DNA from: Ornithinibacillus bavariensis
Lineage (GTDB): Bacteria > Bacillota > Bacilli > Bacillales > Amphibacillaceae
Direction: 5' to 3'
DNA: 64,000 bases
Assembly (NCBI RefSeq): GCF_018333235.1
Contig: NZ_BORP01000001.1
Location: 806,001-870,000, forward strand
The notes beneath the pieces are model-generated. The model was not told the origin of the DNA. It was given only the letters and a program-made list of their open reading frames with translations, and made no database searches. Positions 50,702 through 54,703 of the stretch are shown here, piece after piece; position 1 is the first letter of the stretch, and each line of letters starts with the position of its first letter. The position numbers and the translations under genes are program-made.

Positions 50702-51325
50702 CTAATGAATATGACGGTATAATCCAACAACCTTGCCTAGAATGGATACATTATTATAGATTAATGGTTCCAATGTTGCATTTTCAGGTTGTAAGCGCAC
50801 ATGATCTTTTTCTTTAAAGAAGCGTTTGACAGTAGCTTCATTGTCCTCTGTCATCGCTACGACAATATCGCTATTCTGCGCTGTATTTTGTTGTTTGACA
50901 ATAACCATGTCCCCATCTAATATACCTGCCTCAATCATACTCTCTCCATCAATAACTAAAACAAATAGGTTTTCATCAGGTCCAGCAGTTGAACTTGGGA
51001 TTGGAACATATTCTTCTATGTTTTCCACAGCGGTAATCGGTATTCCCGCTGTTACTTTTCCAATAACCGGTGCATAACGAGCTTCATCTTTTGGAATAGT
51101 ACTTTCCTCTTCTAAATCTAGTATTTCAATCGCCCGTGGCTTTGTAGGGTCTCTACGAATATATCCTTTACTCTCTAAACGCGATAGATGGCCATGAACA
51201 GTGGAACTGGAGGCAAGTCCCACAGCTTCTGCTATCTCTCGAACAGATGGCGGGTATCCCTTTAATCTAACTTGATCTTTTATGTAATCTAATATCGCCT
51301 GTTGCCTTTTTGACATTTTTGTCAT
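50702..51325 (-). CDS. lexA: SOS repressor LexA
   Basis: LexA represses DNA-damage genes and cuts itself when RecA filaments form. The 207-residue protein has the winged helix ([20 protein letters not shown]), the cleavage site Ala93-Gly94 in KVTAGIP, the catalytic Ser129 in DGESMIEAG and Lys167 in EATVKRFF. The start is at 51325, eight bases after GAGGTG. It is divergent from the SOS-type gene pair at 51.5 kb, sharing a 160-base control region with three LexA boxes. Confidence 0.98.
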
Positions 51326-51361: not shown

Positions 51362-51390
51362 AGTTTATCATCTATCAAATTAAAACGCAA
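51362..51390 (-). promoter_or_regulatory. Predicted lexA promoter
   Basis: On the minus strand TTGCGT (51390-51385) and TAAACT (51367-51362) are 17 bases apart. The -35 box overlaps the LexA box at 51388-51401. Confidence 0.6.
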
Positions 51391-51401
51391 ACATTCGTTC
51401 G
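51388..51401. promoter_or_regulatory. LexA box 1 (lexA side)
   Basis: CAAACATTCGTTCG matches CGAAC-N4-GTTCG at 9 of 10 fixed positions and overlaps the lexA -35 box. Confidence 0.8.
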
Positions 51402-51410
51402 AGAAAAGTG

Positions 51411-51438
51411 TTGACAAGAGCGTATGTTCTGCTATAAT
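51411..51438 (+). promoter_or_regulatory. SOS promoter of the micro-ORF and yneB
   Basis: Consensus TTGACA (51411-51416) and TATAAT (51433-51438) with a 16-base spacer. A weak LexA-like site AGAGCGTATGTTCT (51417-51430) fills the spacer. Confidence 0.85.
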
Positions 51439-51446
51439 AAATTTAG

Positions 51447-51460
51447 CGAACAAAGGTTCT
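51447..51460. promoter_or_regulatory. LexA box 2 (micro-ORF side)
   Basis: CGAACAAAGGTTCT matches the consensus at 9 of 10 fixed positions and lies at the expected transcription start. Confidence 0.8.
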
Positions 51461-51487
51461 TATATGATAGGAAAGGGTGATGAAGAG

Positions 51488-51580
51488 ATGTTTGGAAAAG
51501 TTAACAAGACAGATTTGTTTTATATTGCTGCTTTTGCTGTGACATTAGGATTCTTATACCTTTCACTAATTAGTGCATAA
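51488..51580 (+). CDS. 30-residue SOS membrane peptide in the yneA position
   Basis: ATG 51488 to TAA 51580, seven bases after AAAGGGTGA. The peptide begins MFGKVNKTDLFYI and then has one hydrophobic segment (AAFAVTLGFLYLSLI) to its end; a short polar start with two lysines suggests the N terminus stays inside. It occupies the slot of yneA, an SOS cell-division inhibitor of about 105 residues with a membrane segment and LysM domain. Only a membrane segment is present here, and yneB begins 15 bases on, so no LysM domain can be encoded. It may be a shrunken YneA or a functional analogue of small SOS division inhibitors such as SidA of Caulobacter (inference). Confidence 0.7.
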   Translation: MFGKVNKTDLFYIAAFAVTLGFLYLSLISA

Positions 51581-52255
<675 letters not shown>

Positions 52256-52356: not shown

Positions 52357-52593
52357 TTGTTATCAAAGGAAAAACTTTTAAGAATAAATGAACTTGCAAA
52401 AAAGGCAAAGAGTGAAGAAGGTTTAACAGAGAAAGAAAAGGTGGAACAAGAGAAGCTTCGTGGAGAATATTTGAAGAATGTGCGTAGCTCCTTTAAAAAC
52501 CAATTAAAAACCTTAACAGTTATTGATCCCACTGGAAATGATGTAACACCTCAAAAGTTACGTGATATGCAAGAAAGAAATAGAAATCACTAA
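52357..52593 (+). CDS. ynzC: YnzC, DUF896 protein
   Basis: A 78-residue DUF896 protein starting LSKEKLLRINELAKKAKSEE and containing LTEKEKVEQEKLRGEYLKNV. The fold is a short helical hairpin with a C-terminal tail. TTG 52357 follows AAGGAGG by nine bases. In B. subtilis it belongs to the yneA-yneB-ynzC SOS operon; here a terminator separates it from yneB, so read-through or another promoter is needed. Function is unknown. Confidence 0.88.
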   Translation: MLSKEKLLRINELAKKAKSEEGLTEKEKVEQEKLRGEYLKNVRSSFKNQLKTLTVIDPTGNDVTPQKLRDMQERNRNH

Positions 52594-52702: not shown

Positions 52703-54703
52703 ATGGTAAATCATGTTGAACAATTATCGATTAACACAATCCGTACATTGGCTATTGATGCCATAGAAAAAGCTAATTCGGGGCATCCAGGTCTACCAAT
52801 GGGAGCTGCACCAATGACCTATACACTTTGGACGGACTTTATGAATCACAATCCCAAAAATTCAAAATGGTTTAATAGGGATCGATTTGTATTATCAGCA
52901 GGTCATGGTTCTATGCTATTATATGGAATGCTTCATCTTTCGGGGTATGATGTTACGATAGAGGATATTAAGGAGTTTCGTCAATGGGGCTCAAGAACGC
53001 CAGGTCATCCCGAGGTACACCATACAGATGGTGTAGAGGCTACCACCGGTCCACTTGGGCAGGGTATTGCGATGTCTGTTGGTATGGCATTAGCTGAGGC
53101 TCATTTAGCAGCAAAATATAATAGGGACAATCTGAACATTGTAGATCACTATACATATGCTTTAATTAGTGATGGGGATTTAATGGAAGGAATTTCCCAT
53201 GAAGCTGCATCTCTTGCAGGTCATTTAAAATTAGGTAAGCTAATTGCATTATATGATTCGAATGATATTTCTTTAGACGGAGAATTAAACCGGGCATTTT
53301 CTGACAATACTGAGGAGCGCTTTAAGGCTTACGGCTGGCAGGTTATTCGAGTGGAAGATGGTAATGATATTACGCAAATCCGCTCAGCTATTAAAGCAGC
53401 AAAAGAAAATACAGAACAGCCTACATTAATTGAAATTAAAACGGTCATTGGGTATGGTTCACCAAATAAATCCGCATCAGCTGCTTCCCATGGTTCACCA
53501 CTTGGAAAGGATGAAGTAGTTTTAACGAAAGAATTCTATCAATGGGGACATGATGATTTTCATGTACCAGAGGAAGTATATGCAGACTTCAAAGAAAAAA
53601 TTGTGGTAAAGGGTGAACAGCTAGAGGAGGAATGGAACCGATTATTTGCTGCTTATAAGGAAAAGTATCCGCAAGAAGCAAGAGAATTTGAGCTAGCAAT
53701 GAAAGGTGAGCTACCTGAAGGTTGGTTAAACAATTTACCTGTATATGAACCTGGGAAATCTATAGCAACACGTTCTTCATCTGGAGAAGTGCTAAATGCT
53801 ATTGCTACAGCTGTACCGTATTTCTTAGGAGGTAGTGCTGACTTAGCAGGTTCTAATAAAACTACCATCAAAGATGAGGATGATCTTTCAAGAAATAATT
53901 ATGCTGGAAGAAATATATGGTTTGGTGTGCGTGAGCATGCCATGGGTGCTGCACTTAATGGAATGGCGTTACATGGTGGCTTGAAGGTTTTCGGAGGAAC
54001 ATTCTTTGTATTTAGTGATTATTTACGTCCGGCTATCCGTTTGTCAGCTATTATGAAAATGCCTGTAACGTATGTGTTTACTCACGACTCCATTGCAGTA
54101 GGGGAAGATGGACCAACACACGAGCCGATAGAACAGCTTGCTTCGCTTCGTGCATTACCAAACCTATCTGTTATTAGACCTGCAGATGGTAATGAAACAC
54201 AAGCAGCGTGGAGATTAGCGGTTGAATCAACGGATCGGCCAACTATTTTGGTTTTAACAAGACAGGATTTACCTACACTTGTGGGTACGAAGGAAAAAGC
54301 ATATGAAGGTGTTAAGCGTGGTGCTTATATATTAAGTGATTCTGAAAAAGATACACCAGACGCAATATTAATCGCTTCTGGCTCTGAGGTTCAACTTGCT
54401 GTTGAGGCACAAAAAGAACTTCGTAAAGATAATATCGATGTTCGTGTTGTAAGTATGGCATCTTGGGATTTATTTGATGCACAGGATGAAAGCTATAAAG
54501 AAACAGTTCTTCCAAAATCTGTAAAATCTAGAGTTGCTATTGAGATGGGTTCACCTCTCGGATGGGAACGCTATGTTGGACTAGACGGGAAGGTAATGGG
54601 AATTGATACGTTTGGAGCTTCAGCAAATGGTGAGAAGCTGATAGAAGAATATGGATTCACTGTTGATAATGTTGTTAAACAAGTAAAATCATTATCTAAA
54701 TAA
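52703..54703 (+). CDS. tkt: Transketolase
   Basis: Transketolase transfers two-carbon units in the pentose phosphate pathway. The 666-residue protein has the thiamine diphosphate motif [14 protein letters not shown], substrate motifs [17 protein letters not shown] and [20 protein letters not shown], and the usual C-terminal domain. AAAGGAG lies before ATG 52703. A perfect terminator follows. Confidence 0.98.

Follow-up and report, generated by a model that had tools for sequence, protein, structure and literature searches.

A 30-codon gene with a LexA-type promoter in the yneA position of a Bacillaceae clade: a putative SOS-induced division inhibitor

The lexA-yneB interval

The DNA analysed here (the window, 64,000 nucleotides from Ornithinibacillus bavariensis) contains a short ORF of 30 codons between yneB and the divergent gene of the SOS repressor, LexA (Table 1). 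In its putative promoter, a spacer of 16 bases separates two hexamers that agree with the consensus at 12 of 12 bases, and LexA-like sites of unequal quality are found upstream of the -35 hexamer, in the spacer and at the probable transcription start. These sites were scored against a consensus that we take to be CGAACNNNNGTTCG. The distal and the proximal box are the only LexA-type sites with at most one mismatch in the 64 kb window; when two mismatches are allowed, 16 sites are found where 11.6 are expected and, consequently, weaker sites alone carry little meaning.

An earlier note on this DNA had described a consensus promoter, one good LexA box at the start site, a weak site in the spacer, a ribosome site and a 30-codon ORF followed by yneB 15 bases later. 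All of these features were recovered, the gap between the stop codon of the peptide and the TTG start of yneB being indeed 15 bases and the identity of yneB being supported by NF049883; the distal box was absent from that description. An alternative in-frame ATG at 51464 would give a product of 38 residues; conservation starts only at the ATG listed in Table 1. The YneB of the window has 79% similarity to that of O. massiliensis, and it is followed by a 78-codon ORF that presumably corresponds to YnzC and by one that we take to be transketolase-like, an order also found downstream of yneB in B. subtilis.

Table 1. Features of the lexA-yneB locus, in window coordinates
Feature	Position	Strand	Evidence or remarks
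lexA (SOS repressor), transcribed away from the peptide gene	50702-51325	-	TIGR00498 E 9e-75, PF01726, PF00717
LexA box 1 (distal), CAAACATTCGTTCG, between lexA start and -35	51388-51401	+	1 mismatch
-35 hexamer, TTGACA	51411-51416	+	promoter inspection
Weak LexA-like spacer site, AGAGCGTATGTTCT	51417-51430	+	3 mismatches
-10 hexamer, TATAAT	51433-51438	+	promoter inspection
LexA box 3 (proximal), CGAACAAAGGTTCT, at the probable transcription start	51447-51460	+	1 mismatch
Shine-Dalgarno-like AGGGTG	51474-51479	+	8 bases 5' of ATG; 2 mismatches vs AGGAGG
30-codon gene of a predicted membrane peptide, MFGKVNKTDLFYIAAFAVTLGFLYLSLISA, in the yneA position	51488-51580	+	conserved ORF, purifying selection, predicted helix
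yneB, resolvase-like, next gene	51596-52255	+	TTG start; NF049883 E 7e-107
ORF resembling YnzC (presumed name)	52357-52593		78 codons
Transketolase-like ORF (presumed name)	52703-54703		

Conservation of the ORF and its promoter

The ORF is a real gene. In each of the 11 genomes of the genus (that of the window included), the lexA-yneB interval contains a 30-codon ORF of the same family, with peptides 63-93% identical to that of the window, and a peptide ORF was present at this place in all 80 named relatives that we took as the best 80 of 459 YneB relatives. This sample, which includes Oceanobacillus, Virgibacillus, Halobacillus, Lentibacillus, Gracilibacillus, Pontibacillus and other genera, leans towards the peptide clade and overlaps the genus set. 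Peptide starts in these relatives were set by rule, as the last ATG leaving 29-38 residues, and the resulting ORFs have 31 codons in 49 of the best 80, 30 in 27, 35 in three and 34 in one. One Virgibacillus-like lexA-peptide-yneB locus (L085) comes from a record titled Roseburia sp. 1XD42-34, an assembly that is probably mislabelled or contaminated.

When the window is added to the best 80 of 459, the peptide family (ORFs of 30-35 codons), the promoter and the boxes are observed in 81 of 81 loci. The promoter has at most one mismatch in the -35 hexamer and at most two in the -10 hexamer in every case; the proximal LexA box has at most two mismatches in all 81 loci and at most one in 69, the distal box at most two in 80, and the spacer site at most three in 80 and at most two in 64. 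As far as sequence can tell, promoter and proximal box together fulfil the criterion of a LexA-controlled promoter; regulation itself has not been measured.

According to the earlier note, lack of conservation in relatives with the same promoter would have refuted the gene, and synonymous changes were to be compared with amino-acid changes. The first outcome is ruled out by the counts just given, and changes proved to be mostly synonymous. Against ten relatives, pN/pS ranged from 0.10 to 0.46 (25 aligned codons), and over the 81 rows (3240 pairs) it was 0.46 in frame vs 1.09 and 1.43 in the other two frames, which contain stops in 76/81 and 46/81 rows. These ratios indicate that purifying selection acts on the peptide in this frame only. 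D9, F16 and Y24 are invariant in the 81 loci, and position 12 is occupied by Y in 77 loci and by F in four.

The peptide stop lies 14-51 bases 5' of yneB in 74 of the best 80 relatives, and in six loci (L068, L096, L100, L101, L110 and L121) the peptide is kept though it is about 160-1050 bases from that gene. In the four Oceanobacillus loci among these (O. sojae, L100; O. sp. CFH 90083, L101; O. jeddahense, L110; O. neutriphilus, L121), with about 210-1050 bases to yneB, the promoter is also kept despite the distance.

Known families did not include the peptide: it matched no NCBIfam family at E up to 1 and none in Pfam, a PDB search returned one chance-level match only, and a PHROGs search with 73 members of the peptide alignment gave nothing better than E 0.007.

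Distribution of the peptide and YneA in the order

The order was sampled with 397 genomes, in 347 of which yneB was found at E 1e-40. The peptide occurs in 50 of the 51 yneB-bearing genomes of five families (f1, f2, f7, f36 and f32, with 17, 8, 16, 9 and 1 such genomes, respectively), the weak case of G195 having been read directly. At E 0.01, 55 genomes gave peptide matches; five of these (G054, G148, G151, G177 and G270; E 0.004-0.009, partial) were ascribed to chance because of stops, longer frames or a position outside the clade, leaving 50. In G209, a genome of 2.5 Mb of the same family, yneB stands behind a LexA-like site and a -35/-10-like stretch (seen by eye only) without a peptide ORF there, and a copy hidden elsewhere was rejected, the best match being partial, at E 0.0167, in a 111-codon frame. 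No convincing peptide was found in six f2 genomes that lack a yneB match.

For the YneA model, NF010723, the cut-off is 60 bits, which in this search corresponds to about E 1e-16. The model passes in 250 of the 397 genomes and in the B. subtilis control and, by E-value, in none of the 50 peptide genomes, where the best match (E 1.3e-12) is well below the cut-off, as expected of other LysM proteins. The O. bavariensis genome has no NF010723 match at E 1e-8, and its 14 LysM matches are all in open frames of 199-500 codons. An intact LysM-type YneA encoded elsewhere would, according to the earlier note, have spoken against a replacement, and none was found with NF010723 or in the LysM search of this genome.

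The same picture was obtained from 60 lexA-yneB stretches: a peptide of 27-35 residues is present in 20, none of them outside the five families, and a YneA with LysM in 34. In a 70-row tree of LexA+YneB, one side of a branch (SH-aLRT 99) comprises the 40 peptide loci; rows were first labelled by family, a later search confirmed the peptide in 40 of 40 peptide rows, and a row of f29 (L256) was labelled 'chk', no ATG-started YneA having been seen in its interval. Judged by this gene content, the peptide stands in for YneA across the whole clade.

The remaining stretches differ among themselves. In both loci of f21 (L204 and L228), the place of YneA is taken by a protein of 59-61 residues that has an acidic tail and lacks LysM, apparently through an independent loss of that domain. 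The interval of L194 and L226 (f22) and L216 (f11) measures only 131-193 bases and contains no inhibitor ORF, so yneA seems to have been lost from it. In L218 (f29), no ATG-started YneA was seen in the interval, yet the genome has a YneA match.

Predicted structure and likeness to YneA

AlphaFold2 predicts a single helix over residues 7-29, with a mean pLDDT of 92, and charged residues are confined to the N-terminal side, up to D9. The prediction agrees with a single N-terminal transmembrane helix, membrane insertion being inferred from the hydrophobic sequence. The strongly conserved D9, Y12, F16, L20, L23 and Y24 lie on one face of the helix; F22 and S26 are also conserved and lie off that face. 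The conservation moment gave p 0.03 at the preset angle of 100 degrees and p 0.235 with a free angle.

The peptide is like YneA (NF010723) in its place between divergent lexA and yneB, its LexA-type promoter and its single N-terminal helix. By contrast, it has about 30 residues where YneA has about 100, its ORF ends after the helix without the extracellular LysM domain and it does not match the family model, so that, as regards membership in the YneA family, place, promoter and helix agree and the LysM domain and the model match are lacking. In YneA, K5, E6, F10, V11 and F14 have been reported to be needed for midcell targeting, and its helix to bind TM7 of FtsW (PMC13396833). When the two proteins are aligned by eye on the K and two aromatics, YneA K5, F10, V11 and F14 correspond to peptide K7, Y12, I13 and F16, while E6 falls on T8, a non-acidic residue adjacent to the invariant D9. 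Of the five positions key to targeting, four appear to be matched, and YneA is a probable ancestor of the peptide.

A shortened stretch beside TM7 of FtsW

Among the TIGR02614 hits, the second-best class (about 400 codons) was treated as FtsW, and the better-scoring class is presumably SpoVE by gene order and length; the choice is uncertain for G055 and G081. In the loci compared (L328-L349 and L351), the FtsW stretch that follows TM7 measures 9 residues in all 11 peptide genomes, 8 in f10 and 9 in f17, two families whose YneA keeps LysM, and 14-19 in the 10 other genomes. The resulting gap of 7 columns is the only indel of at least 3 residues that separates the groups, with one of 2 columns near residue 75.

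Mutations of B. subtilis FtsW at V204 and P206 block YneA (PMC13396833), and the gap lies close to both residues. The B. subtilis numbering was carried over on the FtsW of G112, where L196 and P206 fit and V204 and N211 do not; the position of the indel beside TM7 is therefore approximate. The indel is a single event, and its presence in f10 and f17 suggests that the change in FtsW came first and the loss of LysM later. As a mark of co-evolution, this sequence difference is suggestive, not proof.

Origin of the peptide

The earlier note had left open whether YneA was cut down to its membrane part or replaced by a micro-inhibitor analogous to SidA. The likeliest origin, on sequence grounds, would be a YneA that lost its LysM domain: this part of the proposal is favoured by the N-termini of f10 and f17 (three of 31) and by the change in FtsW, and it gains little from profile comparison. 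When the full profiles of peptide and YneA are compared (31 of 34 YneA proteins aligned, L197, L199 and L202 left out), the hhalign probability is 11%. With such a weak match, the case for this origin depends on the two near families with YneA, on FtsW and on a tree.

The peptide model, run on YneA N-termini, gave 14.4 bits with f17 and 10.0 and 7.3 bits with f10, at the matching N-terminal place, and no standout score with the remaining 28 of 31. The 99th percentile of the controls was 5.7 bits for full shuffles (2978 of 3100 returned a score) and 8.2 bits for shuffles of the membrane part only, so that 14.4 and 10.0 bits exceed the stricter percentile and 7.3 does not; the maximum of the membrane shuffles was 14.3. 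Among 46 real membrane stretches the highest score was 4.4 bits, less than any of the three. Taken together, the 31 N-termini differ from full shuffles (p 4e-5) and from the real membrane stretches (p 8e-5), but they do not significantly exceed membrane-shuffled controls (p 0.056). The resemblance had been spotted by eye before it was tested.

When f10 and f17 are joined to the peptide clade, the likelihood of the tree is 4.97 units above that of a free quick search (p-AU 0.62), which makes these families plausible nearest kin of the clade, although they were picked for this comparison after the FtsW result was known. LysM may, then, have been lost from YneA in a lineage whose FtsW already lacked about seven residues beside TM7, and the peptide is probably a SidA-sized descendant of YneA.

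Copies in prophages and viral contigs

Second copies of the peptide are clear in five genomes of the order search, and six copies were read: L294 and L295 (both in G354), L296 (G316), L297 (G159), L298 (G272) and L299 (G153). Second matches in G293, G251 and G377 (E 0.003-0.006) fall outside the copies read. Each of the six loci has at least one neighbour with a PHROGs phage-function match, the functions being integrase, anti-repressor, regulator, RecT-like and DnaB-like. No LexA site with at most one mismatch lies within 250 bases upstream of any of the six, L298 having one with two mismatches, and no yneB was seen beside them; in five of the six, the start codon overlaps the upstream frame. 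The five genomes that host these six prophage copies all fall within the peptide clade.

Contig 31 of G316, which carries a prophage copy, is also listed as a viral contig (L447, of equal length), and a scan of 85 viral loci brought three more copies to light, in L388, L352 and L367 (E 5e-8 to 6e-6), besides L389 and L448 as weaker candidates. The prophage and viral copies are 26-31 residues long and lie in early regions, none of them with a LexA site of one mismatch or fewer. When nine of them are aligned on F16 and Y/W24, position 9 is D or E in eight and position 12 is Y or F in nine. One phage copy is matched by phrog_12200, of unknown function, at E 1e-4, and tblastn of one prophage peptide against phage records gave nothing, 31 residues being perhaps too short. 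Gp46 of Listeria phage A118, with 28 residues and a comparable place, does not have the residue pattern and was not counted.

To our knowledge, inert fragments are seldom kept by phages, and for this reason the prophage copies provide the best clue that the helix has an effect by itself.

Comparison with other small membrane proteins

Diverse small membrane proteins resemble the peptide in part. Caulobacter crescentus, which belongs to a different phylum, has SidA, with about 29 residues, and sequence and prediction give the peptide a similar size, a single membrane helix and an SOS-type promoter. SidA is described as an SOS-induced inner-membrane division inhibitor of 29 residues that acts through FtsW (PMC4211646), which indicates that so small a membrane protein can suffice. 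It has been predicted to bind FtsW TM7 on the opposite side (PMC13396833), and membership of the peptide in the SidA family, for which no sequence comparison was made, is not claimed.

SosA of Staphylococcus aureus is also divergent from lexA and has a single helix and no LysM. However, it has 77 residues with a conserved, membrane-proximal extracellular segment, which the peptide, at 30 residues and with nothing after the helix, does not share; the extracellular part of SosA is essential, and truncating SosA almost down to the membrane part leaves it inactive (PMC6851548). DinQ and TisB of Escherichia coli are both single-helix proteins under LexA control and close to the peptide in size. They belong to type I toxin-antitoxin loci with an antisense RNA and cause membrane depolarisation (PMC3567139); the structured, standby-dependent leader of such loci has no counterpart in the peptide locus, for which an antisense RNA is not shown. 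For the prophage copies, a parallel is found in Gp11 of S. aureus phage PhiNM1, a small early membrane protein with 53 residues and two helices; it blocks division, disturbs the recruitment of FtsW and interacts with MurG and DivIC (PMC11237401).

In open-licence PMC articles, to which the search was restricted, we found no paper on the peptide, on a Bacillaceae SOS micropeptide or on YneA together with Oceanobacillus or Halobacillus.

Proposed function and alternative explanations

The match of the targeting residues and the binding of the YneA helix to TM7 lead to a model in which an SOS-induced helix binds TM7 of FtsW. Upon DNA damage, RecA would trigger the cleavage of LexA and the promoter would be freed; the peptide would be made and then inserted in the cytoplasmic membrane, where the face formed by D9, Y12, F16, L20 and Y24 may pack on the septal wall synthase, most likely on TM7 of FtsW. 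As a result, the FtsW-PBP2B complex would be held inactive and septation delayed until repair. Induction, translation, membrane insertion, the FtsW target, the division arrest and the order of the evolutionary steps are all inferred. In B. subtilis, inhibition by YneA requires its LysM domain, and the transmembrane part alone binds FtsW and reaches midcell without inhibiting (PMC13396833), which, like the inactivity of truncated SosA, is a serious objection to the model; consequently, the peptide must act differently from YneA or in a changed FtsW context.

We think it probable, with moderate confidence, that the product of the ORF is a single-helix membrane peptide, induced by the SOS response, which has taken the role of YneA as a division inhibitor; there are no expression, localisation or phenotype data. 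Only tentatively, and as a possibility that may well prove wrong, do we propose in addition that it is a LysM-free, minimal FtsW inhibitor derived from YneA after shrinkage of the docking stretch, and that temperate phages of the peptide clade, which carry versions of the same helix, use it early and without SOS control against host division. Judged by a search for YneA alone, this Bacillaceae clade would seem to lack the SOS division checkpoint, which appears instead as a 30-codon gene without a Pfam or NCBIfam match. If active, the peptide would be related to YneA but confined to the membrane and would do without the LysM domain that is essential in B. subtilis, and its 30 residues would make the question of how FtsW is switched off directly testable. 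The prophage copies suggest that phages exploit the same weak point.

Size, single helix and LexA control would also suit a toxin such as TisB or DinQ, the latter with 27 residues and depolarising (PMC3567139), which would lower membrane potential and ATP and produce dormant cells without blocking division. An antisense transcript across the ORF could even be read from a minus-strand promoter-like site at 51808-51780 (9/12), inside yneB; such sites, however, are at chance level (two found vs 2.6 expected), the predicted folding of leader and ORF does not exceed that of shuffles (z -0.01) and there is no Rfam match. As the peptide, moreover, occupies the place of YneA and replaces it clade-wide, with charges only at the N-terminal side up to D9 and with D9, F16 and Y24 invariant, we regard a toxin as unlikely, though worth keeping in mind.

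The inactivity of the isolated YneA helix described above leaves room for a weak membrane modulator that binds FtsW in the same manner and tunes, tags or protects the divisome, or aids another SOS inhibitor encoded elsewhere in the genome. No gene for another inhibitor was identified, YneA and LysM proteins being all that was searched for; the related helices in phages suggest that the peptide has an effect of its own, and SidA inhibits through FtsW with 29 residues (PMC4211646). A mere modulator therefore seems rather improbable to us, and the division inhibitor remains the preferred reading. That the ORF could be a leader or coupling ORF for yneB, with an irrelevant product, is suggested by its usual proximity to that gene in the best 80 relatives, but we find this hardly credible: the prophage copies have no yneB seen alongside, selection acts at the amino-acid level, and the peptide is kept in the six loci where yneB is distant.
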